DNA of 64,000 bases. It comes from Desulfobacteraceae bacterium (GTDB taxonomy: Bacteria > Desulfobacterota > DSM-4660 > Desulfatiglandales > Desulfatiglandaceae). Positions 22,766 through 36,424 of the stretch are shown here, piece by piece. The notes under the pieces were generated by a model, which worked only from the letters and a program-made list of their open reading frames with translations, was not told the origin of the DNA and searched no databases. The DNA is taken from assembly GCA_016844935.1 (NCBI GenBank), contig JAERTK010000316.1, positions 1-64,000 of the forward strand, in the 5' to 3' direction. Numbering within the stretch: position 1 is the first letter of the stretch; each line of letters starts with the position of its first letter. The translations under genes were made by a program, and so were the position numbers.

Positions 22766-22798
22766 AAAAAGAGGCGGCATTTTGCCGCCTCTTTTTTT
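22766..22798 (+). terminator. Rho-independent terminator of the TRAP/acyl-CoA ligase operon
   Basis: AAAAAGAGGCGGCA pairs with TGCCGCCTCTTTTT around a three-base loop, followed by further T residues. The stem is perfect and sits about 25 bases after the ligase stop. Confidence 0.93.
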
Positions 22799-22905
22799 GT
22801 GGGAATTGATTGAGCGGTTGCTATCTGGGAAGATGAACTCAAAAGATGGCACAAAGCGTTTAAATCACCAATCAAGGTTTCCCCTTTTCTCATTTCAAAA
22901 TTCAC

Positions 22906-22934
22906 TTGCTTTTTTGCCGTTATAGCGGTAAAAT
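22906..22934 (+). promoter_or_regulatory. Upstream hip promoter with operator in its spacer
   Basis: TTGCTT at 22906-22911 and TAAAAT at 22929-22934 are separated by 17 bases. The palindrome-like word CCGTTATAGCGG fills 22917-22928, inside the spacer, so a bound repressor would block the promoter. The same site occurs in reverse orientation at 23054-23074. Confidence 0.6.
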
Positions 22935-23026
22935 ATGTCCACAAATTAGGAATTTCCATTTTCCTAAAAATGAAACAGGCGAAATTTACCTGTATGACAG
23001 TAAAAAATGATATTCATTTGTCTCTG

Positions 23027-23074
23027 CTGACAATTTTAAGAATATATTGTACGATTTTACCGCTAAGGCGGCAA
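23027..23074 (+). promoter_or_regulatory. Second hip promoter and operator
   Basis: CTGACA at 23027-23032 and TACGAT at 23050-23055 with a 17-base spacer form a second promoter. Directly behind lies the palindrome CCGC-TAAG-GCGG at 23060-23071. The longer block 23054-23074 is the near-perfect reverse complement of 22914-22934 (18 of 21 bases). Both are likely HipB binding sites. Confidence 0.6.
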
Positions 23075-23092
23075 TTTTAGGAGATATGAGCT

Positions 23093-23317
23093 TTGGATTA
23101 TAGGGTGAGCGAAATCGTTCTGTTTCATCGCAAAAAAAGTGGTCTGACGCGAAATCAGTTGGCTGATCTAGCGGGTGTGGGTAAGACCGCTATTTATGAT
23201 ATGGAAAAAGGAAAAGAAACCATTCGGTTTTCAACCCTGCAAAAGGTGCTAAAGGCCCTGAATGTAAAAATCACTTTTACAAGTCCCTTAATGGAGGTGC
23301 TGAATGAGAAGCGCTGA
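23093..23317 (+). CDS. hipB: HipB-like XRE antitoxin/repressor
   Basis: A 74-residue Cro/C1-type helix-turn-helix protein (KSGLTRNQLADLAGVGKTAIYDMEKGKETIRFSTLQKVLKALNVKITF), the size of the DNA-binding HipB. Translation starts at TTG 23093, eight bases after a GGAG. Its end overlaps the next start by 14 bases. Together with the next two genes it makes a HipB-HipS-HipT arrangement. It probably binds the two palindromes just upstream. Confidence 0.88.
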   Translation: MDYRVSEIVLFHRKKSGLTRNQLADLAGVGKTAIYDMEKGKETIRFSTLQKVLKALNVKITFTSPLMEVLNEKR

Positions 23318-23618
23318 GGTATCGATGCATGGTGTGCCGTCCGGTATTTTAGAGGAAATAGAACCTGGAAAAAAATACCGGTTTACATATTTTGAGAAAT
23401 ATACAGGGCCCTCAATCGCATTAACCATGCCGGTGGAGGGAAAGGAATTTGTTTTTGAACGGTTTCCTCCATTTTTCGATGGTCTGTTGCCGGAAGGGGT
23501 CCTTCTTGAGGGCCTTTTGAGGCAGCGCAAGATTGATAAATTTGATTATTTAAGTCAGTTAATAACGGTGGGAAACGATCTGGTGGGCGCTGTTACCGTT
23601 CAGGAGAAAATTGAATGA
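23304..23618 (+). CDS. hipS: HipS-like protein (HipA N-terminal subdomain as a separate gene)
   Basis: A 104-residue protein equal to the Couple_hipA N-terminal domain: EVSMHGVPSGILEE, FTYFEKYTGPSIALTMP, FPPFFDGLLPEGVLLEGLLRQRKID and VGNDLVGAVTV. In two-gene hipBA systems this domain is fused to the kinase. In the three-gene HipBST systems it is a free small protein that acts as the antitoxin. It overlaps hipB by 14 bases and hipT by four (ATGA). Confidence 0.87.
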   Translation: MRSAEVSMHGVPSGILEEIEPGKKYRFTYFEKYTGPSIALTMPVEGKEFVFERFPPFFDGLLPEGVLLEGLLRQRKIDKFDYLSQLITVGNDLVGAVTVQEKIE

Positions 23619-24544
23619 GACGATGCCCGATTACCTACGAGGAATGTGAAAGCGGTCAGTATTCTCTTCGGGGTTTGAAAAAACTTTCACCCAGATTGAA
23701 GTTTTTAAAAGACTTCCCTTTCTCGGCTGAAGACCAGGTTAGAGAGGCAATTGCCCGGGCTGCAAAAATGTCAATTCAGGGAGTTCAACCCAAATTAAGT
23801 GTGCGCTTAAATTTAAAAAATGAGATCTTTGAGATTGCGGACACCGGTGGCCGGTATATTTTCAAACCGCAAACGGAGAATTACAGCGAAGTTCCGGAAA
23901 ATGAAGCTGTGACCATGCGGCTGGCCAAACTCATTGGAATCGATACGCCCCTGCATGGCCTGGTGTATTCCAAAGATGACACCATGACCTATTTCATCCG
24001 TCGCTTTGATCGAGCGGGCAGAAATAAGAAAATTCCGGTGGAAGATTTCGCTCAACTTTCTGGAAAAGATCGAGAGACCAAATATGATTCGTCCATGGAG
24101 CAGGTTGTTTCCCTCATCGAACAGTTTTGCACATTTCCGGCCATTGAAAAATTGAAACTTTTCAATCTAACACTTTTCAATTATCTCGTCGGAAATGAAG
24201 ATATGCATCTAAAGAATTTTTCCCTGATCAGGCAAGATCTGAAAGTGGAACTCTCCCCGGCCTATGATCTTTTAAACACAACGATTATATTAAATGCCCG
24301 GGAAGAGCTTGCACTTCCACTCGGCGGTAAGAAGAATAAACTGAAGAAAGATGACTTTTTTGTGTATTTCGCAAAAGAGCGCCTTGATTTAACCCGAAAA
24401 TCCATCGAGCAAACGGTGAATCGCATTGCAGAGGCATTTCCCGGATGGACTGATCTTATTCAAAAATGCTTTTTATCCGATCCCATGAAGGCTCAATACA
24501 TCGATCTTCTCAATGAGAGATTCAACAAACTGGATTTATTGTAA
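23615..24544 (+). CDS. hipT: HipT-like serine/threonine kinase toxin (HipA C-terminal domain)
   Basis: A 309-residue kinase lacking the HipA N-terminal subdomain. The glycine-rich loop reads KMSIQGVQPKL (Ser53-Ile-Gln55), where the E. coli O127 prototype has a Ser-Ile-Ser motif. The catalytic loop is GNEDMHLKNFSL and the metal motif is in SPAYDLLNT, so it should be active. HipA kinases inhibit growth by phosphorylating aminoacyl-tRNA synthetases: HipA acts on GltX and the described HipT on TrpS. The target here is unknown. Coupled to hipS by ATGA. Confidence 0.87.
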   Translation: MRRCPITYEECESGQYSLRGLKKLSPRLKFLKDFPFSAEDQVREAIARAAKMSIQGVQPKLSVRLNLKNEIFEIADTGGRYIFKPQTENYSEVPENEAVTMRLAKLIGIDTPLHGLVYSKDDTMTYFIRRFDRAGRNKKIPVEDFAQLSGKDRETKYDSSMEQVVSLIEQFCTFPAIEKLKLFNLTLFNYLVGNEDMHLKNFSLIRQDLKVELSPAYDLLNTTIILNAREELALPLGGKKNKLKKDDFFVYFAKERLDLTRKSIEQTVNRIAEAFPGWTDLIQKCFLSDPMKAQYIDLLNERFNKLDLL

Positions 24545-24571
24545 TTTTAGATTGACTTACTGCTGATTTGT

Positions 24572-24631
24572 AATCTGCCCCTTTAGGCCTTGTCGCTGCT
24601 GCCCCGTTTTGTTCCAGAGACCAGACGTTGA
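24572..24631 (+). pseudogene. Relic of a DUF4143 ATPase C-terminus
   Basis: The plus-strand frame reads N-L-P-L-stop-A-L-S-L-L-P-R-F-V-P-E and ends at a stop. The intact ATPase at 25554-26873 ends N-L-P-L-Y-A-V-S-Q-L-P-R-F-V-S-G. The nucleotide match is also clear (shared CTGCCCCTTTA and CCCCGTTTTGTT blocks). The in-frame TAG replaces a tyrosine codon. This is the decayed tail of a second copy. Confidence 0.6.
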
Positions 24632-24720
24632 CCGGGGATTTCGTCGTGCACTGACTTGGACGATCCGAACGCCTGTGTACCCTGTCATCCATGTTAACCA
24701 CGGAGAGCATGTTGTATAAA

Positions 24721-24744
24721 AGCAATAAAATGTTGCATATTGCT
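24721..24744. promoter_or_regulatory. Inverted repeat, likely operator of the ParD/ParE-like pair
   Basis: AGCAATA at 24721-24727 and TATTGCT at 24738-24744 form a perfect seven-base inverted repeat with a ten-base spacer, 50 bases before the antitoxin gene. Ribbon-helix-helix antitoxins usually bind such sites to repress their own operon. Confidence 0.45.
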
Positions 24745-24793
24745 ATTACATACGGTACGGTGGTGTGAAATGTCCTGATAGGGGGTGATTACA

Positions 24794-25012
24794 ATGACAA
24801 GTGCCGTAAGAGTTTCCGAGGAGTTGGTGCGGGAAGCAAGAATATTCAGCAAAGTTGATCAACGATCTTTAACTGGGCAAATTGAGCACTGGGCAAAAAT
24901 AGGCAAGTGCGCTGAGGAAAACCCTGACCTGACTTATAGCCTAATAAAGGATATCCTTATTGGTCTTGTTGAGCTTGAACAAGGTGAATCATCAGAATAC
25001 AAGTTCGGATAA
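24794..25012 (+). CDS. ParD-like antitoxin
   Basis: A 72-residue protein starting TSAVRVSEELVREARIFSKVDQRSLTGQIEHWAKIGKCAEENPDL, the pattern of the ParD-like/TA_antitoxin family. The N-terminal strand and helix would form a ribbon-helix-helix DNA-binding dimer and the C-terminal helix would cover the toxin. ATG 24794 is chosen because TAGGGGG lies at a good distance; GTG 24785 is an alternative. The toxin gene starts six bases after its stop. Confidence 0.8.
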   Translation: MTSAVRVSEELVREARIFSKVDQRSLTGQIEHWAKIGKCAEENPDLTYSLIKDILIGLVELEQGESSEYKFG

Positions 25013-25018
25013 CCGCCA

Positions 25019-25300
25019 ATGAAAATTTTACAGGCTCGGCAATTTGGAAGAAAGGTTAAAAAATTCACCCAACAAGAAAAAAGATCGCTCGACAAGCAGA
25101 TTCAAAAAATCGTTGACAATCCTGCCATCGGTTCCGAAAAAAGAGGCGACCTTCGAGGGGTATATGTTCATAAATTCAAGATGAAACAGACACAATATCT
25201 GCTTTCTTATCGTTTTGCCGAAGAGATTCTTGAATTAATCATGATTGGTCCCCATGAAAACTACTATAGAGACCTGAAAGGCTATTTGAAAAGTAGCTAA
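25019..25300 (+). CDS. RelE/ParE superfamily toxin
   Basis: A 93-residue toxin: MKILQARQFGRKVKKFTQQEKRSLDKQIQKIVDNPAIGSEKRGDLRGVYVHKFKMKQTQYLLSYRF and then the ILELIMIGPHENYYRDLK ending. The pattern (two helices, DLRGVYVHKF, YLLSYRF, GPHENYY) is that of RelE/ParE toxins which cut mRNA on the ribosome or poison gyrase. Which of the two applies is not decided by sequence. It is the downstream partner of the ParD-like antitoxin. Confidence 0.85.
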   Translation: MKILQARQFGRKVKKFTQQEKRSLDKQIQKIVDNPAIGSEKRGDLRGVYVHKFKMKQTQYLLSYRFAEEILELIMIGPHENYYRDLKGYLKSS

Positions 25301-25350
25301 CAAGCAAACAATCATAGACCAAGGTTTGACACCGCTCTCCAACTTGCTAA

Positions 25351-25389
25351 AATCCGCAAACAAAATAAATATTTGTTTGTTTGCGGATT
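25351..25389. repeat. Perfect 14-base inverted repeat
   Basis: AATCCGCAAACAAA and TTTGTTTGCGGATT pair perfectly with an 11-base loop. No T run follows on either side, so it is a weak terminator at best; it could separate the toxin gene from the ATPase gene. Confidence 0.6.
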
Positions 25390-25484
25390 AAACGGTTTCA
25401 GTACGGCCTTTGATGAGTACCCTTCTTTTCTATGACCGTAAGGGAGTATTTTGTGACAAAACGCACGTTTTACGTCCGAATAAA

Positions 25485-25498
25485 GTGCAAGTTTGCAC
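25485..25498. promoter_or_regulatory. Palindrome upstream of the first DUF4143 ATPase
   Basis: GTGCAA-GT-TTGCAC, a six-base inverted repeat, lies 56 bases before the ATPase start. It may be an operator; the second ATPase also has a palindrome in the same region. Confidence 0.35.
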
Positions 25499-25553
25499 AA
25501 AATCAACCTGAAAAGCTTGACGGTGACCCACATTTGTGGCAAACTACCATGCC

Positions 25554-26873
25554 ATGAAAAGAGATATTTATGAAAAGTTGGTAACGTGGAAATCGTCTCC
25601 CCGGAGGAAGCCACTTCTCTTGCAGGGTGCCCGGCAAACGGGAAAAACGTTCATCCTCAGGGAGTTCGGCCAAAAAGAATACCAAGGTGTCGTATACTGC
25701 AACTTTGAAGAAGATCCCGGTCTCGACCAGCTGTTTCAACGGGATTTGAATCCGGAGCACATACTGGCGGAACTTTCCATTTATATGAACGTGGAGATTC
25801 ATCCAGGGTCCGATTTGATTATCTTCGACGAGATCCAGGCTTCAAATGGTGCCTTGAATTCACTGAAGTACTTTGCTGAGCAGCGACCCGCTGTTCATAT
25901 GGCGGCTGCAGGCTCTCTTCTCGGGGTGAAACTATCCAGCCCAGGATCTTTTCCGGTGGGGAAAGTGAATTTCCTCCATCTCTATCCCATGAATTTTTTG
26001 GAATTCTTAGATGCAATGGGGGAATCCAGATATAGAAAACTGATTGAAAATCTCGACCCGCCTGTTCCCATAAACGAAGCATTTCATTCACACCTAATCG
26101 ATCTGCTCAGATGCTATTATTTTGTCGGCGGCATGCCAGAACCTGTCGAGCATTTTGTCGAAACAGGCAACGGACGCGAAACCAGGGAGATTCAGGAAGA
26201 AATTATTAAGTCATATGTTCTGGATTTCGCCAAACATGCTCCGTCAACCGACATACCGAAACTTACTCAGCTCTGGGACTCTATCCCAAAGCATTTGGGA
26301 AGAGAGAACAAGAAATTCGTGTTTTCTGCTGTCAGAAAAGGGGCCAGGGCCCGAGCCTATGAAAATGCGCTGACCTGGCTTGAAGATGCCGGTCTTATCC
26401 ACAGGGCAAATGCAGTTGAGACCTGTAAACATCCACTCAAACATTATGCGGATGTGAGTTGTTTCAAAATATATGCCCTGGATGTTGGATTGTTAGGGGC
26501 TCTGGCCGGATCTCCTGTTGAGCTGCTGGCACAAGGCGGGCGGCTCTTCAATGAGTATGAGGGTGCTTTTGTCGAAAATTACGTTGCCCAGCAACTGGTC
26601 TCGCATTTCCGCCAGGACCTCTTCTACTGGCGAAGTAAAGGCGGAAAGGCCGAGCTTGACTTTCTTTGTGAATTTGCGGATCGGATCTGTCCGCTGGAGG
26701 TTAAAGCCGGGATTAATCCAAAAAGCAAAAGCTTGAAGTCCTACGATTTACAGTTCCAACCGGTCCGGCTCATGCGCACGAATCTGCTTAATTTCAAGAT
26801 GGATGGGAAAATCTGCAACCTGCCCCTTTACGCTGTATCGCAGCTACCCCGTTTTGTTTCAGGGGCCGGTTGA
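25554..26873 (+). CDS. AAA ATPase with DUF4143 C-terminal domain (copy 1)
   Basis: A 439-residue protein of the AAA_14/DUF4143 family. The N-terminal half has Walker A GARQTGKT and Walker B DLIIFDEIQ, and the arginine-finger region follows. The C-terminal half ends in a nuclease-like core, FYWRSKGGKAELDFLCEF with PLEVKAG, which carries the E-x-K pattern of PD-(D/E)XK folds. The family is common in accessory DNA but has no settled role. ATG 25554 fits the family beginning (KRDIYEKLVTWK); GTG 25536 is an alternative. A relic of its C-terminus lies 1 kb upstream. Confidence 0.85.
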   Translation: MKRDIYEKLVTWKSSPRRKPLLLQGARQTGKTFILREFGQKEYQGVVYCNFEEDPGLDQLFQRDLNPEHILAELSIYMNVEIHPGSDLIIFDEIQASNGALNSLKYFAEQRPAVHMAAAGSLLGVKLSSPGSFPVGKVNFLHLYPMNFLEFLDAMGESRYRKLIENLDPPVPINEAFHSHLIDLLRCYYFVGGMPEPVEHFVETGNGRETREIQEEIIKSYVLDFAKHAPSTDIPKLTQLWDSIPKHLGRENKKFVFSAVRKGARARAYENALTWLEDAGLIHRANAVETCKHPLKHYADVSCFKIYALDVGLLGALAGSPVELLAQGGRLFNEYEGAFVENYVAQQLVSHFRQDLFYWRSKGGKAELDFLCEFADRICPLEVKAGINPKSKSLKSYDLQFQPVRLMRTNLLNFKMDGKICNLPLYAVSQLPRFVSGAG

Positions 26874-26957
26874 ACGTGAGGAAAATGACAATTTCAAAAT
26901 TACGGAGAAGACCCATTTGGGTCGCTGACAAAGCCTGCGGTTCGATTCTGGAAACGT

Positions 26958-28541
26958 TTATGATTTTTTTTGGGCCATCAGCTTCTCAAACACTTGATCT
27001 CGGTTCTTCTGAATCCCGTTCCCGTCGTGATAGAGAAGGACCAACTCTAAGGGGCCTCCCCCGAGGGCCTTCCGGGCCACATTGTCCGGGCTGATGGTGT
27101 ATCGCCCCATGATTTTTTCCGTGGGCCAGCCGGGATCCGGATAGGTCAAGTAGACCAATTCGGAACAAACGATTTTGTCCGTCGTCTCCACGTCAAAGTT
27201 GAAATCATACGCCTTGCCGATCTGGCGCAAGGCGCGGATGATGGCTTGGCCCAACGCCTCTTTGCCAAGAGATTTCACGCGCAGCACGGCCAAATCATCG
27301 ATATTGAGAAAATGTTCCAGGGTGTTCAACTGAACCCCCTCCCGCAGTGCCTCAGCAACGGACGCGCCGCGTCGAATGGCATTGTGGTGTTTTTGGACCA
27401 CCGGGTGGTCCCAAATCCCCAGCGCTTTCAATTCCTGTTCATTGCCGACCCATATGGCCGCATGTCCCCAGTGGCCCGGGATCAAACGGTCCGTAAGCCG
27501 AAAGGGGGTTTTCTCCAGAAGGATGTCCCCGGCCTTCAAGTTCTTCACCGCGTCTTGCCGTACATGGGGGTCTTCATAAAGTTTGCCTTTTCTTTCCTCC
27601 ACCAGCCCCACCACATTTCCGAAAAATTGGCTGACACCCCCTACCACCGATCGATTAATGATATTCAGGTTGTCCTTGACCCGGTTCGTACGTGCGTCGG
27701 TTTCAATGGCCTCAATCCGCTCCGATGCCCCCTCTTTGAACAGGGCAAAGGAAGGACTCTGCTGTATCAGAAGGTTGAAATAGGTGAGCTGATCGTCTTC
27801 CCTATGACTGGTTTCTAAATCTTTCATCCGGCTGGCATAATAATCGATGCCCTCCTGAATGTATAGGGCGTTTGACCGGGAGAGGAAGGCCTCAGTAATG
27901 GCCTCCATCTGATTTTCTTTGATGCCGTAGCCCAGATCGCTTGCATTTAAAAAGCGCCTAATGCGTTCGTCTTCGTTTAAAACGGCCAATGTCCCCAGGT
28001 AGGTATCATAGAGCATCAAAGAGGCTGCAAGGGAGAGCATGACGCCCTTGAGCCGGGTGGTCTCATCCAAAGGTTCCAGTCCCATTTCCGCCACCATTGC
28101 GGGGTGGGCCCGCAGCCAGCAGGAATGGCGGCCCACGAAACCGGCGAAACCGTCGCTCAGGGAAAGTCCCTTTCGCATTCTTTTCTTCATGGTATTTTGA
28201 AGCCCGGGCCGCATGGGACCATCGTTCTTCATTTCCTCCTTAAGCTTCTGGACAAGCTTCATGGTCTGGGCACGCGACGTCAGAAGATCCTCGACCATGG
28301 TTTGGAGAAGCTCGGTTTCGCGGTCCAGCATGGATGTCAGTTGCGTCTTATGGCCTTTGGTGTTTCGAAGCGTATCCCAGCAGTTTTGCTCACTGAACAC
28401 AATCAGGTCCTGGTTTCGGCCCTGGATGGATTGTGGCCCACAGCCGGTGAAAGCAATGAGCACCGCCAATAACAAAACCCTGCGCCACATGACAAAAAAG
28501 GCTTTAAAGGCATAAATGAAAGAAGGGGATTCCAAAAACAT
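26958..28541 (-). CDS. Lipoprotein with C-terminal permuted papain-like (YiiX/YebB) domain
   Basis: About 527 residues. A signal peptide with lipobox (VLLLAVLIAFTGCG) indicates attachment to a membrane by a lipidated cysteine. The middle is mainly helical and unlike any family I recognise. The last 200 residues resemble the YiiX/YebB branch of NlpC/P60: GHWGHAAIWVG carries the histidine, DKIVCSELVYLTYP the cysteine, and GKAYDFNFD a conserved turn. Such domains cut peptide or ester bonds in the cell envelope. ATG 28541 has GGAG upstream; ATG 28490 would give a more usual 18-residue signal. Confidence 0.75.
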   Translation of the reverse strand: MFLESPSFIYAFKAFFVMWRRVLLLAVLIAFTGCGPQSIQGRNQDLIVFSEQNCWDTLRNTKGHKTQLTSMLDRETELLQTMVEDLLTSRAQTMKLVQKLKEEMKNDGPMRPGLQNTMKKRMRKGLSLSDGFAGFVGRHSCWLRAHPAMVAEMGLEPLDETTRLKGVMLSLAASLMLYDTYLGTLAVLNEDERIRRFLNASDLGYGIKENQMEAITEAFLSRSNALYIQEGIDYYASRMKDLETSHREDDQLTYFNLLIQQSPSFALFKEGASERIEAIETDARTNRVKDNLNIINRSVVGGVSQFFGNVVGLVEERKGKLYEDPHVRQDAVKNLKAGDILLEKTPFRLTDRLIPGHWGHAAIWVGNEQELKALGIWDHPVVQKHHNAIRRGASVAEALREGVQLNTLEHFLNIDDLAVLRVKSLGKEALGQAIIRALRQIGKAYDFNFDVETTDKIVCSELVYLTYPDPGWPTEKIMGRYTISPDNVARKALGGGPLELVLLYHDGNGIQKNRDQVFEKLMAQKKS

Positions 28542-28628
28542 GTCGGACTCCATGAAAACTATTTTGCTGAATTTATAGCATTTGCAGGGATAGGGATCAA
28601 ACTTTCATATGTTTTGATTTTTTGAGGC

Positions 28629-28694
28629 GATGAAGAAAAAGGTGTCAGAGTCCTCCCGGTTCACAGATTTTACAGAAAATCTACAAAATCATGA
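28629..28694 (+). pseudogene. Relic of a second DUF4143 ATPase C-terminus
   Basis: In the plus frame the sequence reads E-E-K-G-V-R-V-L-P-V-H-R-F-Y-R-K and ends at a stop (28692-28694). The intact ATPase at 28871-30010 ends E-K-N-G-V-R-V-L-P-F-H-T-F-C-K-E. Nucleotides GGTGTCAG-GTCCT-CC and TTCACA are shared. Only the tail remains, with stop codons immediately upstream. Confidence 0.55.
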
Positions 28695-28832
28695 AAAAGC
28701 CCTGATAAGGGATTTACTCACATTTGGGGCGCATGGGTTTTTCAAACATGTGAAGGTGGGCTGATGTGCCCCCAGAAAAAAGCATGGTCTGGAAGCGGGG
28801 TTTTGGAATTTATAAAATCATGTGCATTCTAC

Positions 28833-28848
28833 TTTACTCATGAGTAAA
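28833..28848. promoter_or_regulatory. Perfect 16-base palindrome before the second DUF4143 ATPase
   Basis: TTTACTCATGAGTAAA is its own reverse complement and lies 23 bases before the ATG. A site this symmetrical in this place is likely an operator; no regulator gene is adjacent, so self-control or a distant factor is possible. Confidence 0.55.
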
Positions 28849-28870
28849 ATCGTGTTATAGCGATTTTGCC

Positions 28871-30010
28871 ATGAAAAAAATATATAAACGATACATCAAA
28901 GATTCGGTTGATGAAGACCTGAAAAACAAAATGGTCTTTGTGGGTGGTCCCAGACAGGTTGGCAAGACGACCTTTGCGTTAACATTTCTTGCAGAACCCC
29001 ATGAAAAACATCCCGCCTACCTGAACTGGGATGATGTTTTGACCCGCTCATCGCTACTGAGGGGAGAATTGCCCCCGAATCAAGACTTGATCGTTTTAGA
29101 CGAAATCCATAAATATGCAAGATGGCGCAACCTCGTCAAAGGGTTCTATGATACAAAAAAAACTGATATCTCTTTTATCATCACCGGCTCCGCAAGATTG
29201 GACTATTACAGCAAGGGGGGAGACTCCCTTCATGGCAGATATCATTATTACCGGCTTCACCCTTTTTCCATTCAAGAAGTTAATACCACCCCTTCGGCAA
29301 GTGATGTTCAGGGGTTGCTTAAATTCGGAGGTCTCCCCGAGCCTTTTTTAAGAGCGGACGAAAAATTCTGGAGAAGATGGCAAAAAGAGAGACTCCAGAG
29401 GGTTATTTACGAAGATATCCGGGATCTTGAAAACATTAAAGAGATAAGCCTTCTTGAATTGCTGGCGGAAGAAATCCCCAATCGGGTAGGTTCACCGCTT
29501 TCTGTAAAAAACCTGAAAGAACTCCTGCAGGTAGCCCATGAAACCGTGGAACGCTGGCTGAAAATCTTTGAACGAATGTATTATTGCTATCGCATCCCTC
29601 CCTATGGACCTCCAAAAGTTCGGGCTGTGAAAAAAGAACAGAAGCTGTATCTGTGGGACTGGTCCATTATTCCAGACCCCGGTCCGAGGTTTGAAAATTT
29701 TGTGGCCTCTCAACTTTTGAAGTATTGTCATTTCGTGGAAGACACGGAAGGTTTCCGTATGGATCTTCGTTTCTTGAGAGATACGGACAAACGCGAAATC
29801 GATTTTGTTGTTTTAAAAGAAGGCAGACCCCTGTTTGCGGTTGAATGCAAAAGCGGTGAGAAGAACATCAATCCTTCCCTCTTTTATTTCATGAAGAGAA
29901 CCTCTATACCCAGGTTCTACCAGGTGCATGAAGGCAATAGAGATTACGAAAAAAATGGTGTCAGGGTCCTTCCCTTTCACACATTTTGCAAAGAGCTTTG
30001 TCTGCCATAA
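28871..30010 (+). CDS. AAA ATPase with DUF4143 C-terminal domain (copy 2)
   Basis: A 379-residue relative of the protein at 25554, diverged enough to be a separate acquisition. Walker A is GGPRQVGKTTFA, Walker B DLIVLDEIHKYARW, sensor region FIITGSARLD. The C-terminal nuclease-like core reads DKREIDFVVLKEGRPLFAVECKSGE, again with the D...E-x-K pattern. It lies behind a perfect palindrome and a relic of its own C-terminus. Confidence 0.87.
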   Translation: MKKIYKRYIKDSVDEDLKNKMVFVGGPRQVGKTTFALTFLAEPHEKHPAYLNWDDVLTRSSLLRGELPPNQDLIVLDEIHKYARWRNLVKGFYDTKKTDISFIITGSARLDYYSKGGDSLHGRYHYYRLHPFSIQEVNTTPSASDVQGLLKFGGLPEPFLRADEKFWRRWQKERLQRVIYEDIRDLENIKEISLLELLAEEIPNRVGSPLSVKNLKELLQVAHETVERWLKIFERMYYCYRIPPYGPPKVRAVKKEQKLYLWDWSIIPDPGPRFENFVASQLLKYCHFVEDTEGFRMDLRFLRDTDKREIDFVVLKEGRPLFAVECKSGEKNINPSLFYFMKRTSIPRFYQVHEGNRDYEKNGVRVLPFHTFCKELCLP

Positions 30011-30034
30011 GAAAATAACATTCGGAGAAGCCTG

Positions 30035-30427
30035 ATGAATCAAGACAGCAACACTCCCGTTAAGGGGGATATTCTTGTTGTAGATGATGACCCGTCGAGC
30101 CTGAGTGCCCTGTCATCCATGCTGACCGTTGAGGGATACGAGGTGCGGGGTGTCACGGACGGAAAAGCGGCACTGACCGAGGTCCAAAACAAACCTCCGG
30201 AATTGATCTTACTGGATGTTAAAATGCCCGGCATGGATGGTTTTGAAGTTTGTCAACAGATAAAAGCGGACGAAAAATCATCCCCCATACCGGTCCTCTT
30301 CCTGAGTGCTCTGGATGCGATGGAAGATAAGGTCAAAGGGTTTCACGCTAGAGCGGTGGACTTTATCACCAAACCATTTCAAGTGGAAGAGGTGTTGGCC
30401 CGGGTAAACCTCAAGCCGGCTTTTTAA
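30035..30427 (+). CDS. Response regulator receiver protein, probably truncated
   Basis: A 130-residue receiver domain: VVDDDPSS acidic pocket, phospho-acceptor in LILLDVKMPGMDG, VLFLSALD and the lysine in FITKPFQ. The domain is complete up to VEEVLARVN and then ends abruptly (LKPAF). Related receivers of this type usually continue with HLTLR-like sequence into a kinase or output domain. The stop falls inside the left arm of an 11-base inverted repeat (30423-30490), so the gene was probably cut short there. Confidence 0.75.
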   Translation: MNQDSNTPVKGDILVVDDDPSSLSALSSMLTVEGYEVRGVTDGKAALTEVQNKPPELILLDVKMPGMDGFEVCQQIKADEKSSPIPVLFLSALDAMEDKVKGFHARAVDFITKPFQVEEVLARVNLKPAF

Positions 30428-30490
30428 TGGTCCGTTGACAATAATAGAGGGTTTCTCTGCACTCTGTCCTCGTCCAGTGGGACCATTAAA
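30423..30490. repeat. Inverted repeat at the end of the truncated receiver gene
   Basis: TTTAATGGTCC at 30423-30433 and GGACCATTAAA at 30480-30490 are perfect inverted copies around a 46-base centre. The form resembles a very small non-autonomous element or its scar. It carries the stop codon of the receiver gene. Confidence 0.6.
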
Positions 30491-30729
30491 GGGGGAAAGG
30501 CCAACATCTTTCAAGTGAGGTTTCAGTTCGTGCTCTGAGTTGGCGCGCTTGATGGGAAACAGAAACCGCGAGTCAAGGCAGCCGTCCGGCGTTAACCCAT
30601 AAATAACTTGTTTATCACTTCCCGATTGTTCTAAAATAAACGCCTAAGATGATTTGAAAAGCGCATCATATTTTTCTGCCCGAATAAATGATGTCACATA
30701 AAGGTGAATGGGAAGGGAGATAAACATTG
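30491..30729. other. Intergenic region before the hydrogenase operon
   Basis: About 240 bases without gene. AAGGGAG lies before the hydrogenase start. No clear sigma70 or sigma54 promoter was found. Confidence 0.4.
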
Positions 30730-32562
30730 ATGGAATATAAAACCATCGGCAAGCGGGATTTTCGAGATTTCGTCAACAAGCTCATTCAGGGGGATCATGA
30801 AATCAACGGTGTGGTGGGGAAGGGAACCGCTTTTGTCTATGACACCCTGGCGGATGCGTCGGACCTTTGCCTGGACTATGATGAAACCCTGCTTCCGCCC
30901 AAAAAATATTTTCTTCCCGTCAAAGAAACCCTCCTGACTTTCAAGACCGGAGACCCCTCTTCCTATCACGAAAGCGTTGAAGCCGAACCGAGAATCATTA
31001 TCGGTATACACCCCTGGGACCTGGCGGCCATCGCGCTACTGGACAAGGCCTTTTCCACGGGACAGTCGGATGTCAACTACCTTTCAAGGCGAAATCAAAG
31101 CCTGCTGATCGGCATATACCCCACCCGGGCCTTTAAACATCGATTCAGTGGTTCCATGATCACCGATGAGCATTATCAGGTGGCGGATCTCATGTTGGTG
31201 GATATGGGAGATGGCACCTATGCTATTGAGGTGGTATCGGAAAAGGGAAGTGTGTTGATTCAAAAAAGCGCTGCCGTACCGGCCGACGAACACACCATCG
31301 AAAATATGGAAAGGCGAAAGCATGTGGTTCAGGATGAAGCGCGTCTCTCCATGCCAATGAAGGATTTGCCGGCATTTCTGCAAAAACAGCAGCAGTCGAA
31401 AGTGATCGATCGGCGTGCGGAAAGATGCTTTTCCTGCGGTTCATGCGTTCTCGTTTGCCCCACCTGCTACTGCTTCCACGTGGAGGAAGAGGTGGACCTT
31501 TCCCTTCAGGCGGGCCGGCGTACGCGTACCTGGGACGGGTGCATGATGGAGGGGTTTGCATCGGCTGCCGGTGGGCACAATTTCAGGGAAACCCCGGCCA
31601 ACCGCTTGCGGCATCGTGTTCTGAGAAAGGGAAAATACCTTCCCGACCACTTTCATCTGCCCGGCTGCGTCGGATGCGGTCGGTGCGCACGGGCCTGTGT
31701 GGCGGACATCGCTTCCCCATTGGAAATTGTCAACGAAATGAACCGTTCCATCTATCTCCCCGAGGTGGCCACCCTTCAAAAAGTCGAAGATATGACGGAT
31801 AAGGACCGCTTCTTTGAGTTTACCCTGGAAGGGCGGGATCTGGACCACCAACCCGGGCAGTTTGTGGAACTGTCAATTCCCGGCATCGGGGAAGCCCCCT
31901 TTTCCATTTCCTCATCCCCCACAAAACAGGGAAGTTTTGAGATGTTGATTCGAAATGTGGGAAAAGTGACCGAAGCGGTTCACCGCCTGGCACCGGGTGA
32001 CCAGGTGGGTATCCGGGGGCCGTTCGGTTCCCATTTTGCGGTGGAAAGGTACCTGGGGAAGGACCTCCTTTTTATTGCGGGAGGCCTGGGGCTGGCGCCC
32101 CTCCGATCCGCCATCAATTATGTCATGGACGACCGGAAAAATTACGGGCAGGTGATCATTCTTTCAGGGGCCAGGGACCGATCCCAGCGGCTTTTTCCCG
32201 AAGAAGTAAAGAGATGGTCCCGGGCGCCCGATACTCTTGTGCTGGAGACCCTGGACCAGGGGGACGAAGCGTGGTCCGGGCAGACCGGCGTGATTACCAC
32301 CCTGATCCCCATGGTTTCGGACCGCATTATTCCTTCCAACACAAAGGCGTTCGTTGTGGGTCCGCCGATCATGTACCGCTTCGTCATCCGTGAACTGGAA
32401 ACTTTGGGCTTTGATCATAAAGACATCCTGGTATCGCTGGAAAGGCGCATGGAATGCGGCGTTGGCAAGTGCGGTCACTGCCAGATCGACGACATCTATG
32501 TATGCCAGGAGGGACCGGTCTTTACCTATGAATCAATCCGAGAATCCATGGAGGCGTTATGA
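30730..32562 (+). CDS. [NiFe] hydrogenase electron-transfer subunit, fused beta (Fe-S) and gamma (FAD/NAD(P)) modules
   Basis: A 610-residue fusion. Residues 1-355 match the beta subunit of sulfhydrogenase-type enzymes, with two ferredoxin-like [4Fe-4S] sites: CFSCGSCVLVCPTC and CVGCGRCARAC. Residues 365-610 match the flavin reductase gamma subunit: flavin-binding GEAPFSISSSP, nucleotide-binding AGGLGLAPLRS, and a C-terminal [2Fe-2S] site (ECGVGKCGHC with a later cysteine in YVCQEGP). In typical group 3b enzymes these are separate proteins. It would carry electrons between NAD(P)H and the small subunit. ATG 30730 follows AAGGGAG. Overlaps the small-subunit gene by four bases. Confidence 0.88.
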   Translation: MEYKTIGKRDFRDFVNKLIQGDHEINGVVGKGTAFVYDTLADASDLCLDYDETLLPPKKYFLPVKETLLTFKTGDPSSYHESVEAEPRIIIGIHPWDLAAIALLDKAFSTGQSDVNYLSRRNQSLLIGIYPTRAFKHRFSGSMITDEHYQVADLMLVDMGDGTYAIEVVSEKGSVLIQKSAAVPADEHTIENMERRKHVVQDEARLSMPMKDLPAFLQKQQQSKVIDRRAERCFSCGSCVLVCPTCYCFHVEEEVDLSLQAGRRTRTWDGCMMEGFASAAGGHNFRETPANRLRHRVLRKGKYLPDHFHLPGCVGCGRCARACVADIASPLEIVNEMNRSIYLPEVATLQKVEDMTDKDRFFEFTLEGRDLDHQPGQFVELSIPGIGEAPFSISSSPTKQGSFEMLIRNVGKVTEAVHRLAPGDQVGIRGPFGSHFAVERYLGKDLLFIAGGLGLAPLRSAINYVMDDRKNYGQVIILSGARDRSQRLFPEEVKRWSRAPDTLVLETLDQGDEAWSGQTGVITTLIPMVSDRIIPSNTKAFVVGPPIMYRFVIRELETLGFDHKDILVSLERRMECGVGKCGHCQIDDIYVCQEGPVFTYESIRESMEAL

Positions 32563-33311
32563 GCACGAAACCGAAAGTGGCGTTTTTCGATTTTGCATCC
32601 TGCGAGGGGTGTCAGCTGCAGATCGCCAATCTGGAAGAGGAAATCATCGGCCTGGTAGACCTGGTGGATGTGGTGGAGTTCAGGGAGGTGATGACGGAAA
32701 AGGCCCCAAGCTACGACATTGCTTTTATTGAAGGCTCCATTACCCGGGAGAAAGATGAAGCGCGTCTGCGGGATATCCGCAAGCGGTCCGGTCTCCTGGT
32801 GGCCCTGGGCGCCTGTGCCGCCACCGGTGGCCTGAACAAACTCAAGAATGTTCGTGGCAACCTCGAACAGGTGAGGCGGGATGTGTATGGGGGCGATTGG
32901 GATCGTCCGCATCTGGAAACCTATGCCACCCGGGCTGTGGGTGAAATCGTTCCCGTGGATTTTCAAATTCATGGGTGTCCCATCAGCCGGGACGAGTTTC
33001 TTCATGTTGTGGAAGCCTTTGCGTTGGGTACAAATCCTGAAATACCCGATTATCCCGTCTGTGCCGAATGCAAAACCAAGGAAAATATCTGTCTTTTTCA
33101 TATGGGACAAACCTGTCTGGGCCCCGTCGTCCGTGCCGGCTGCGGGGCCATATGCCCCAGTAACGGTGTCGGGTGCGAGGGGTGTCGCGGCATCATTCCC
33201 CATGCCAACCAGAATGCCATGAAAGACGTTTTAGCTGAGCACAATCTGACAGTGGAGCAGATCACCGAAAAATTCAATCTGTTTCCCCTTTACCCGGAGG
33301 TGAACCCGTGA
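32559..33311 (+). CDS. [NiFe] hydrogenase small subunit (group 3 type)
   Basis: A 250-residue small subunit. DFASCEGCQ gives the first two cluster cysteines, followed by GACAATGG, IHGCPISRDEF, and the C-terminal cysteine set CAECKTKENIC and CGAICPSNGVGCEGC. These can hold three [4Fe-4S] clusters that wire the active site to the beta/gamma subunit. No twin-arginine signal is present, so the enzyme is cytoplasmic. Overlaps both neighbours by four bases. Confidence 0.93.
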   Translation: MSTKPKVAFFDFASCEGCQLQIANLEEEIIGLVDLVDVVEFREVMTEKAPSYDIAFIEGSITREKDEARLRDIRKRSGLLVALGACAATGGLNKLKNVRGNLEQVRRDVYGGDWDRPHLETYATRAVGEIVPVDFQIHGCPISRDEFLHVVEAFALGTNPEIPDYPVCAECKTKENICLFHMGQTCLGPVVRAGCGAICPSNGVGCEGCRGIIPHANQNAMKDVLAEHNLTVEQITEKFNLFPLYPEVNP

Positions 33312-34609
33312 CAGGAAAATCCATACGCATTGAAAACGCCCATATCTCAAGGGTGGAAGGCCATGGTAGTATTGTGGTGTACATGGAAGGGGACCGTCTT
33401 GAAAGAGTGGAATGGCAGATTCCCGAAGCCCCCCGCTTTTTCGAGTCCATGGTGGTTGGCAGAGACTGGAGCGAGCTCTCCCGAATTACCTCGCGCATCT
33501 GCGGCATCTGTTCCATTGGTCATACCTTCGCGTCCCAGAAGGCCACGGAAGCGGCCATGGGGATTACCATAACGGAACAGACCCGGCGTTTGAGGGAGAT
33601 TCTCAACCATGCGGAAAACCTTCAGAGCCATATCCTGCACGTGTGCTACCTGGTGCTGCCGGATCTTCTGGGGGTTGGGAGTGTTCTGCCCCTCATCGAA
33701 ACCCACCGGGAAGTGGTCCTTCTGGCCATCCGGCTCCATCGGCTGGCCAACGAAACCTGCGACAAAATCGGTGGCCGGACCACCCATCCCATACGGTCCT
33801 GCGTCAACGGTTGGAGCATGTTCCCAGACAAAAAAACTTTCCAGGAAATTCGGGATAACCACGTAAAGGCCATGGCGGATCTGAAACACCTGGCGGAATT
33901 TGTACAATCCCTCACCCATAAATTGCCCGATTTTGAGCGGGAAACGGAATACGTGAGCCTGACCCATCCCAGGGAATACGCCCTTTATGATGGCGTCATC
34001 AAGTCGAGTGATGTACCGGACCCCATATCTCCCCGGGACTACGAACGCGTTACCAACGAATATGTGGATGATCGCTCCACGGCCAAATGGACCCGGTTTA
34101 ATCGGGATGCCTATGCCGTGGGGGCCATGGCCCGGTTCAACAACAATCCGGACCAATTGAGTGATGGGGCAAAAGCCGTCGCCGGTCAACTGGGGCTGTC
34201 GGCACCCTGTCACAACCCCTTCATGAACAGCGTGGCCCAGGTGGTGGAGTGTGTGCTTTCCGTGGAAAAGACCATTGAACATTCACAATGGTTCCTGGAT
34301 AATGGGATCAAGGAAGAGGATAGGGGGTTTACTGTTTGTGAGGGTCGTGGAGTGGGTGCAGTGGATGTGCCACGGGGAACCCTGTTTCATGACTACACCT
34401 ACGACGGGAAGGGAAAATGCGTGGATGCCAACCTGGTGATTCCCACCAACCAGAACCATGCCAATATTCAGGTGGACATGGAAGAACTGGTGCCTCTTAT
34501 AACGGATATGCCCAGCGAAAAAATGAACCTGACACTGGAAATGCTGGTACGGGCCTATGACCCCTGTATTTCATGCTCAACCCATTTCGTTGATTTGAGA
34601 AGCACTTGA
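33308..34609 (+). CDS. [NiFe] hydrogenase large subunit (group 3 type)
   Basis: A 433-residue catalytic subunit. The N-terminal nickel motif is RICGICSIGH (R-x-C-G-x-C-x3-H) and the C-terminal one DPCISCSTH; all four nickel cysteines are present, so this is a true hydrogenase and not a complex I homologue. After the last histidine only FVDLRST remains, the short tail that a maturation protease would remove. No maturation gene is adjacent. The operon order is beta/gamma fusion, small, large. The usual role of such enzymes is reversible H2/NAD(P)H exchange. Confidence 0.95.
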   Translation: MTGKSIRIENAHISRVEGHGSIVVYMEGDRLERVEWQIPEAPRFFESMVVGRDWSELSRITSRICGICSIGHTFASQKATEAAMGITITEQTRRLREILNHAENLQSHILHVCYLVLPDLLGVGSVLPLIETHREVVLLAIRLHRLANETCDKIGGRTTHPIRSCVNGWSMFPDKKTFQEIRDNHVKAMADLKHLAEFVQSLTHKLPDFERETEYVSLTHPREYALYDGVIKSSDVPDPISPRDYERVTNEYVDDRSTAKWTRFNRDAYAVGAMARFNNNPDQLSDGAKAVAGQLGLSAPCHNPFMNSVAQVVECVLSVEKTIEHSQWFLDNGIKEEDRGFTVCEGRGVGAVDVPRGTLFHDYTYDGKGKCVDANLVIPTNQNHANIQVDMEELVPLITDMPSEKMNLTLEMLVRAYDPCISCSTHFVDLRST

Positions 34610-34648
34610 GTCCCCTGCGCTTTTATGGGTGCTGCGGCATGGAGAAAT

Positions 34649-36424
34649 TTATTCTGCCTCCAACCGAAATTTTCCCGAGCGAAACAGGTTGAGGCACATA
34701 TCTGCCACATCCTTGTCGTAGAGCATCCCCCGGCCTCTTTCAATTTCTTCAAGCGCTTTTTCGATGCCCAGCGATGCCCTGTAGGGCCTGTGGGTGGCCA
34801 TGGCTTCCACAACGTCGGCTACCGCAATGATCCTGGCTTCCAGCAGAATTTCCGTCCCCGATAACCCGCCTGGATACCCTGATCCATCAAGACGTTCATG
34901 GTGCTGTAGAACGATTTTGGATATGGGCCATGGAAAGTTGATATTTTTCAGGATGTTGTAACCGGCTTCGGAATGGGTTCGAATCAGATCGAATTCCGGC
35001 TGACTCAGTGCTCCGGGTTTGCTGAGAATTTCCGCCGGTACGTTGATTTTTCCGATATCATGTACCAGTGATGCCAGTCTCAGCCCCTGAAACCGATCTT
35101 GGTCCATCTCCATTTCAAGGGCGATGGCGGAGACGATTTGTGTTACTCTTCGTTGATGGCCGGCCGTATAGGGGTCCTTCATTTCAAATGCCGATGCCAG
35201 GGAAATGACGGCTTCTTCAAGATTCTTGCTCAACCTGACGATGCCCTTGCGGATCTTTTTTTCGGCCTCTTTGCGTTCGCTGATGTCCCTCAGCGTCACG
35301 ATGTGGGCGGGCATCCCCTTGAACATGATATTGGTGCCCAGGCTTTCAACATCCTTCCCCGCGCCATCTGACGAGATGATTTTATATTCATTGAGAAACT
35401 TGGCATGGCGCCTTTTGACCATCAGATAATTTCTGATAACCGATTTCATGTAATCAGGGTGGATGAATTCTCCCACGTGTTTTCCCACCAGCTCCAGGGG
35501 GGATTCCATGTCAACGAGTTCAGCTGCGGCATTGTTGGCGAAAAGGGCTTTGCCGCCCTGGTCAATGATAACCGCCGCATCCAGCATATTGTCCACCAGG
35601 GAGCCTATGAGACCCTGGCTTTCCCTCAATTCCAGCTCTTTTCGTTTGCGTTCGGTAATGTCGTTGATGATGATAACCTTGTGGTCTTTTAGTGGAATTA
35701 GGTTCAGTACCACAAGACGTCCACAGAACAAGGCGGGTGCGTCTTCATCGATCCCAACAATTTCTTTTGTTTGATTGTTCTGTTTCAGCAAATCCGTGAT
35801 TCGCGACTGGTGCTCCTCGGCAAACAGCGCGGTAAATCGGGTTCCCAGCAGATCAATTTCAGAGAGCCCGGTCAAAAGCCGGACCCTTGAGTTGACGGAT
35901 ATGATCCTGCCATCGGCTTCTATTTCCAGGATACCCTCTTTCATTCTTTCGAGGATGATTTCAAAATGCTGCTTCGCAGAAAGCAGTTCCTGGGTGATCT
36001 TTCTGGGCCAGATGTCTTCGCTACCCAGGACATCACCGCCCAGGCATTTACGGCGGTTTTCCTCGGGGTTTTTCACCACCGACAGAATATTGCGGGAGAG
36101 TTCTGGAAGCGGCCCTTTTGCGATGAGGATGTCCGCAGCAAGATCAGCGATATTGTCCCGTTCTTCAGCTGCCAGCGCGGACATGACAGCAATGATGCTG
36201 TTTTCCTGGCGCTTCATTTCACGAATGGCGTGGCACAATTGGCGGCCATCAATGTTGGGCATGACCAGGTCCACAAATATGAGGTCCGGAAAATAGGTTT
36301 GAAGTACGTCCAGGGCTTTCAACCCATCTTCAGCCACGCGGACCTCGTGCCCGTTTTCCTCAAGCAGGTCCTTGACAAATTCAAGGATCAGCAGGTCATT
36401 ATCGACGACAAGGATTTTTTTCAT
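34649..36424 (-). CDS. REC-PAS-PAS-HD-GYP response regulator (c-di-GMP phosphodiesterase)
   Basis: A 591-residue protein. Residues 1-120: receiver (VVDNDLL, LIFVDLVMPNIDG). Residues about 160-400: two PAS domains (ILEIEADGRIISVNSRVRLLTG; ALFANNAAAELVDMESPLELVGKHVGEF). Residues 405-590: HD-GYP domain with HQRRVTQIVSAIA, LVHDIGKINVPAEILSKPG and LQHHERLDGSGYPGG, all metal and signature residues present. It should hydrolyse c-di-GMP. ATG 36424 with AAGGAT upstream is preferred to the longer frame. It converges on the hydrogenase operon. Confidence 0.92.
   Translation of the reverse strand: MKKILVVDNDLLILEFVKDLLEENGHEVRVAEDGLKALDVLQTYFPDLIFVDLVMPNIDGRQLCHAIREMKRQENSIIAVMSALAAEERDNIADLAADILIAKGPLPELSRNILSVVKNPEENRRKCLGGDVLGSEDIWPRKITQELLSAKQHFEIILERMKEGILEIEADGRIISVNSRVRLLTGLSEIDLLGTRFTALFAEEHQSRITDLLKQNNQTKEIVGIDEDAPALFCGRLVVLNLIPLKDHKVIIINDITERKRKELELRESQGLIGSLVDNMLDAAVIIDQGGKALFANNAAAELVDMESPLELVGKHVGEFIHPDYMKSVIRNYLMVKRRHAKFLNEYKIISSDGAGKDVESLGTNIMFKGMPAHIVTLRDISERKEAEKKIRKGIVRLSKNLEEAVISLASAFEMKDPYTAGHQRRVTQIVSAIALEMEMDQDRFQGLRLASLVHDIGKINVPAEILSKPGALSQPEFDLIRTHSEAGYNILKNINFPWPISKIVLQHHERLDGSGYPGGLSGTEILLEARIIAVADVVEAMATHRPYRASLGIEKALEEIERGRGMLYDKDVADMCLNLFRSGKFRLEAE

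Follow-up and report, generated by a model that had tools for sequence, protein, structure and literature searches.

A hipBST operon with three upstream operators

The window, a 64,000-nucleotide stretch of contig JAERTK010000316.1, contains the genes hipB, hipS and hipT in that order and in a single tight operon, preceded by three operators (Table 1). Reading of the open reading frames confirmed the three overlapping genes of an earlier preliminary description, with overlaps of 14 bases between hipB and hipS and 4 bases between hipS and hipT. HipB matches HTH_3 (7e-13) and TIGR03070 (2.2e-16, below the TIGR03070 cut-off), and its recognition helix reads GVGKTAIYD. HipS matches TIGR03071 (1.2e-21) and has Couple_hipA (8.7e-21) without HipA_C, and HipT harbors HipA_C (3.7e-51) without Couple_hipA. 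Because Couple_hipA is present only in HipS and HipA_C only in HipT, the domains of HipA are distributed over two proteins, with HipT consisting of a kinase core that lacks N-subdomain-1. The HipB-HipS-HipT design proposed in the preliminary description was right.

Searches against solved structures gave the Legionella pneumophila (Lp) proteins as best matches for all three, namely HipB(Lp) 8ezt (2.8e-19), HipS(Lp) 7vkb_B (1.7e-35) and HipT(Lp) 8ezr_B (2.1e-116); the match of HipT to E. coli HipT was far weaker (3.2e-25). The Gly-rich loop of HipT is K-M-S53-I-Q-G, in which a single P-loop Ser is followed by an aliphatic residue and then by Gln. Asp196 and Asp218, the putative catalytic/Mg residues, are invariant in A1, as are Asp132, Arg133, Glu143, Arg153, Lys156 and Lys200, which match the residues that HipT(Lp) needs to bind HipS (D133, R134, E144, R154, K157 and K201; PMC9325769). 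On these sequence comparisons the assignment of the module to HipBST, and within it to the L. pneumophila (S-Psi-Q) subclade, is settled to a high degree.

Table 1 Features of the hipBST locus and its surroundings in the window
Feature	Position	Strand	Sequence	Remarks
Segment without counterpart in G003	22799-34649			Variable segment
Unit shared with Ca. Desulfatibia vada	22905-24546	+		Starts 9 bp ahead of O3 and ends at the hipT stop
Operator O3	22914-22931		TTGCCGTTATAGCGGTAA	PWM 25.8; exact pattern match
Linker O3-O2	22932-22985			54 bp; A/T tracts about every 10 bp
Operator O2	22986-23003		TTACCTGTATGACAGTAA	PWM 16.8; two mismatches to degenerate pattern
Linker O2-O1	23004-23056			53 bp
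Weak promoter candidate	23027-23055	+	CTGACA-17-TACGAT	9/12 consensus match; just upstream of O1
Operator O1	23057-23074		TTACCGCTAAGGCGGCAA	PWM 24.0; exact pattern match; 18 bp before the hipB start codon
Motif before hipB	23079-23083		AGGAG	
hipB	23093-23317	+		74-aa XRE/HTH repressor; TTG start
hipS	23304-23618	+		104-aa free HipA N-subdomain-1; predicted antitoxin
hipT	23615-24544	+		309-aa HipA_C kinase; predicted toxin
Imperfect direct repeat	24566-24622 and 26811-26867			About 57 bp
ParD-like/ParE-like pair	24785-25300			PF11903, PF15781
REP-like element	25342-25392			Small, palindromic
AAA_14-DUF4143 ATPases	25536-26873 and 28871-30010			Two genes

Relatives of the module and the HipT loop

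Relatives were gathered by a scan of named genomes and by unbiased genome searches, which yielded 106 further non-redundant loci. All of them, from many phyla, contain hipS and hipT, and nearly all have hipB in the expected place; hipS and hipT almost always overlap by 4 bases, and hipB and hipS mostly by 14 or 4. As the gene order and the overlaps recur in relatives of so many phyla, no frameshift is involved. The loop is SIQ or SVQ in nearly all relatives. One retrieval used a pattern that contained KMS[IV]QG, which biases the SIQ/SVQ frequency in that retrieval, and in protein-based searches SIQ was universal too. A single locus (L100:1501-2418) has Cys-Ile-Gln, so that the position of the autophosphorylated serine is replaced. 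The preliminary description had taken the Ser-Ile-Gln loop for an unusual trait, which was mistaken: an "SIQ group" of HipT was named in eLife 2023 (PMC10627512), and mBio 2023 (PMC10653801) gave SVQ/SIQ as the loop of HipT(Lp) and of its homologues in Legionella; in that study autophosphorylation of the single loop serine did not stop the toxicity of HipT(Lp).

Operators and promoter candidates

The operators stand at positions -179 (O3), -107 (O2) and -36 (O1) relative to hipB, with O3-O2 and O2-O1 spacings of 72 and 71 bp and gaps of 54 and 53 bp. In the whole 6.09-Mb genome, O1 and O3 are the sole exact matches to the degenerate 18-mer TTRCYGYYAWRRCRGYAA, and O2 is weak in this copy. The 21-nt arms at 22914-22934 and 23054-23074 form an inverted pair that is 86% complementary. 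Thus, the two inverted palindromes of the preliminary description are real, but they are the outer members of a set of three, of which the central O2 had been missed. The promoters to which these palindromes had been assigned fared less well. A consensus scan found 6 sigma-70-like sites against 4.0 ± 2.1 expected, a number not above chance, and two separate promoters were rejected as unsupported; the site at 22906 scores only 8/12, and the O1 palindrome sits just downstream of the hexamers of the weak candidate, not within them. In the upstream regions of relatives, sigma-70-like sites showed no shared position with respect to the operators, and promoters are placed differently from taxon to taxon.

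Operator spacing across phyla

A PWM was trained on the upstream regions of the relatives and then scored on the same regions, and spacing was never used. At PWM >= 9, 234 sites were found in 89 upstream regions, compared to 0.3 in Markov nulls. Exactly three sites are present in 64 of these regions, and some arrays show only two recognisable sites. Full triples occur in Pseudomonadota, Bacteroidota, Ignavibacteriota, Thermodesulfobacteriota, Acidobacteriota and Chlorobiota, and also in Spirochaetota, Verrucomicrobiota, Myxococcota, Margulisiibacteriota and Fidelibacterota. In 107 loci, adjacent operators are 71 (68 cases), 72 (45), 61 (29), 70 (7), 62 (4) or 73 bp (4) apart, and more rarely 41 (3), 31, 68 or 82 bp (1 each). 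These values are fitted by 10.17 bp x n + 0.3, and nearly all fall on a ladder of ~10.2 bp (31, 41, 52, 61, 71-72, 82); the spacing of 68 bp, at L031, involves a weak site. The HipT tree shows at least five changes of spacing class between O1 and O2 and at least seven between O2 and O3. Of the ten departures listed, nine come within 1 bp of the ladder (P 2e-6, a nominal value, as the data themselves supplied the period and origin and the events were listed by eye). Between O1 and the start codon the distance is free to vary (-18 to -52 in most loci) and has no ~10-bp phasing.

The spacing also persists where the operator sequence does not. HipB proteins with a GVGKN (six loci) or GVSR (five loci) recognition helix have other palindromes upstream, and in all 11 of these loci the top self-similar distance, determined without a motif model, is 71/72. 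The conservation of the array across phyla and three operator specificities, along with the ~10.2-bp spacing ladder, is apparently new; within the set of papers searched, nothing relevant turned up on phased operators of toxin-antitoxin modules or on decoy operators of phages. A geometric rule for autorepression that outlasts changes in operator sequence would bear on the assembly of HipB, HipS and HipT on DNA.

Linkers between operators were sampled with one locus per 70%-identity cluster, giving 53 linkers. In these, A/T tracts recur with a period of 10-10.25 bp and keep phase with the operators (z of 15.5 phase-locked and 6.8 individually), and trimming of the linker ends left z values of 13.1 and 4.1, respectively. 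The 61-bp linkers show the same A/T phase, and the region upstream of O3 gave no individual, per-linker A/T-tract signal (z about -1). The hipB coding control gave a phase-locked signal as well, reaching z 10.8 though with a period of 11-11.5 bp, indicating that shared descent contributes to such statistics. The helically phased A/T tracts of the linkers appear from these comparisons to be a new feature of such arrays. In a wedge model, the O3-O1 segment ranks at the 99.6th percentile of the window for curvature and at the 97.8th among equally AT-rich segments; given this second percentile, curvature serves as supporting evidence only.

A second HipBST clade

Three loci with SIS-type HipT proteins (L012-L014; 37-38% identity) carry three to five operators of the form TATACCC-N4-GGGTATA, which are 41 bp apart where all are recognised. 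A pattern-only search found TATACCC pairs in 5 of 395 Bacteroidota genomes. In three of the five, the array lies directly before hipBST, with spacings of 41, 52, 41; 40, 41; and 41, 41, 41. Two Bacteroidota genomes (L219 and L221) have a TATACCC pair at 41 bp with hipBST absent from the fetched locus. A second HipBST clade with other operators 41 bp apart is apparently new.

Mobility and genomic surroundings

Between the window and Ca. Desulfatibia vada (L020), the shared unit is 89% identical at the DNA level and is set in unrelated flanks, and the HipT tree joins these two copies apart from relatives of the same family. The shared unit, its unrelated flanks and the tree placement together indicate that the cassette moves with its operators. 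In L020 the cassette is flanked by two nearly identical copies of one small gene (12-476 and 3497-3943), which suggests that it was inserted with a duplication. A genome of the same genus as the window (G003) lacks 22799-34649, its synteny jumping from 22798 to 34650, which places hipBST in a variable segment.

Directly downstream of hipBST is a ParD-like/ParE-like toxin-antitoxin pair; the stretch 24711-25311 has a counterpart of 90% identity in a different genus of the family (L134). The ~57-bp direct repeat flanks this pair together with the first AAA/DUF4143 gene, and the second AAA_14-DUF4143 gene is located in the same variable segment. The REP-like element is present in several genomes of the same family. 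The genome that contains the window has four further HipA_C genes (L001, L003, L004 and L005), of which three are long, undivided frames of 441-467 aa.

Operator pairs in phage contigs

Viral contigs were scanned for class I operator pairs by pattern only, with spacing left free between 53 and 82 bp. Pairs were found in ten contigs, with spacings of 72, 61, 72, 71, 70, 71, 72, 72, 71 and 72 bp, and the fetched loci of these ten contained no hipB, hipS or hipT. Seven of the ten are related, tRNA-rich contigs in which the pair lies near tRNA-Asp and tRNA-Glu genes; the other three (L140, L143 and L144) differ from them. The tRNA-rich contigs (L141, L142 and L145-L149) have a second palindrome, AAGTRYCATATATGATACTT, beside the pairs, which likewise occurs as a pair, at 61-62 or 71 bp.

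The corresponding scan for TATACCC pairs, with spacing free between 28 and 54 bp, found them in 60 viral contigs, nearly all spaced 40 or 41. Only one of the 60 (L180) carries hipBST, directly downstream of the pair, and serves as a positive control. The remaining 59 contigs represent 35 independent contexts, and 31 context-spacing entries are at 40 or 41. By a mechanical ORF map, 54 of the 60 pairs are intergenic, and the genes that they adjoin are diverse and include terminase and tape measure. HipA_C exceeded the cut-off only in the L180 record among 43 whole records searched, some of which are fragments. In one contig (L144), both kinds of pair are present in a single gap, each at its own spacing. 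The linker centre of the phage pairs is A/T-rich beyond shuffles (2/2000), and palindromes scrambled for both kinds of pair gave 0 and 0 matches in viral contigs. The phage operator sites are real and specific. Among named phages with a relationship to the pair-bearing contigs, Flavobacterium 11b and Polaribacter P12002L contained no operator pairs, nor did most of Cellulophaga phi10:1 or the part of a 642-kb uncultured phage that was covered. TTTCCC pairs gave three matches in viral contigs, mostly spaced 23 or 34 bp, and were not counted because this spacing is not that of hipBST; in the viral contigs L214, L215 and L216, three TTTCCC-N6-GGGAAA palindromes stand 23 or 34 bp apart. Apparently new is the presence of intergenic operator pairs of both kinds, with the spacings seen before hipBST, in phage contigs without HipA-type kinases (10 and 59 contigs).

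Proposed working of the module and alternatives

We propose, with a probability of about 0.85, that the locus is a horizontally mobile Legionella-type HipBST in which HipS would be the antitoxin and HipB, with its three operators, would build one bent or wrapped repressing array. By analogy with the Legionella relatives, HipS, as the detached N-terminal subdomain of HipA, would block HipT by displacing its P-loop and HipB would act as a DNA-binding autorepressor. HipB dimers, probably carrying HipT and HipS, may occupy the three operators upstream of hipB. These are about seven helical turns apart and thus share one face of the helix, in DNA with A/T tracts every ~10 bp, so that the bound operators could fold into a single nucleoprotein array over ~160 bp. 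With a geometry deduced from sequence comparison, such an array would shut the promoter near O1. A free loop would hardly form over as little as ~71 bp, so the DNA would have to bend strongly. The comparison across relatives supports the array model, and the looping suggested in the preliminary description appears nearer the truth than its evidence allowed, given three operators, conserved spacing and phased A/T tracts.

Other readings of the module have to be weighed against this proposal. That HipS and HipT correspond to neighbouring portions of HipA would fit a sequencing error that split one hipA frame, but the same split and overlaps are found in ~100 relatives of many phyla and in the solved Legionella proteins; this conserved split refutes the error, to which we assign almost no probability, and the HipA split taken as genuine in the preliminary description is so. 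An E. coli O127-type HipBST, phosphorylating tryptophanyl-tRNA synthetase (TrpS) and subject to dual loop phosphorylation, would have the same gene order and domains. It is nevertheless very unlikely, as the loop is SIQ and not SIS, the Trp65 position of HipS is occupied by Val, HipT matches the Legionella protein at 1e-116 and E. coli HipT at 1e-25, and cells are not rescued from HipT(Lp) by TrpS; by analogy with the Legionella toxin, TrpS is an unlikely target of HipT. It could also be that the three operators act independently, each blocking its own promoter or serving as a roadblock, and that their even spacing was kept by descent, not by selection for helical phase. HipB(Lp) indeed binds single 50-bp operator fragments alone, in a study that found the sites not to differ in affinity and demonstrated no looping (PMC10653801), many arrays share ancestry on the tree, and promoters shift between taxa. 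Yet the HipT tree shows at least 12 changes of spacing class, of which a single one misses the ~10-bp ladder, 71/72 is kept with three operator specificities while the second clade uses 41, and the linker A/T tracts keep their period though the sequences diverge. We consider independent operators unlikely, but not negligibly so.

For the phage pairs two readings compete. HipBST repressors may read a geometric code in which operators are set whole numbers of ~10.2-bp turns apart on phased, curved DNA, and the phage pairs (70-72/61 and 40-41 bp) may be decoys that capture HipB or HipBST; this is a tentative proposal to which we give somewhat less than an even chance, although decoy operators as such are plausible. 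The paired palindromes might instead be RNA hairpins, terminators or targets of another phage regulator, a possibility that likewise falls short of even odds. They are perfect inverted repeats in short intergenic gaps and able to form hairpins, seven of the ten class I pairs belong to phages that are related to one another, the pair-bearing phages have no assigned host, and a pair was found in no named phage. On the other side, the spacing windows were free and the pairs still fall at 61/70-72 and 40/41, as do the operators in hipBST arrays that share the motif; the scrambled palindromes had no matches, L144 keeps each kind of pair at its own spacing, and bacterial TATACCC arrays directly precede hipBST in three of five genomes. 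If the phage pairs do bind host HipB, they would represent a protein-free form of phage interference, a DNA-based counter-measure against a toxin-antitoxin system.

Comparison with known Hip systems

The module itself is one more HipBST of ordinary appearance. The nearest solved structures are those of L. pneumophila HipBST (lpg2368-2370; PDB 8ezr, 8ezs, 8ezt and 7vkb), with which it shares the gene order, the three proteins, the S-Psi-Q loop and three evenly spaced HipB-type operators with gaps of ~53 bp. Three operators with 53-bp gaps, a spacing of 71 bp, are present in 28 Legionella species, and HipB(Lp) binds each of the three Legionella operators in a complex that HipT and HipS-HipT supershift (mBio 2023, PMC10653801). 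The two modules come from different phyla and a large share of their residues differs; the HipB-HipS overlap is 14 bases here compared to 4 in L. pneumophila, the loop is SIQ here and SVQ there, and O2 has drifted in the window.

HipBST of E. coli O127:H6 (PDB 7ab3-7ab5) has the same three-gene design, with HipS a homologue of HipA N-subdomain-1. In contrast to the SIQ of the window, its loop is SIS (S-Psi-S) with two phosphorylatable serines, and its HipS has a Trp65 wedge, the role of which has been described (PMC10627512), where alignment to 7ab4_B places Val in the HipS studied here. The Legionella-type operator motif was reported absent upstream of the E. coli HipBST operon (PMC10653801). 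With HipBA of E. coli K-12 the module has in common a kinase core and an HTH repressor; HipA of K-12 is one chain, whereas in the window N-subdomain-1 is a separate protein encoded by its own ORF.
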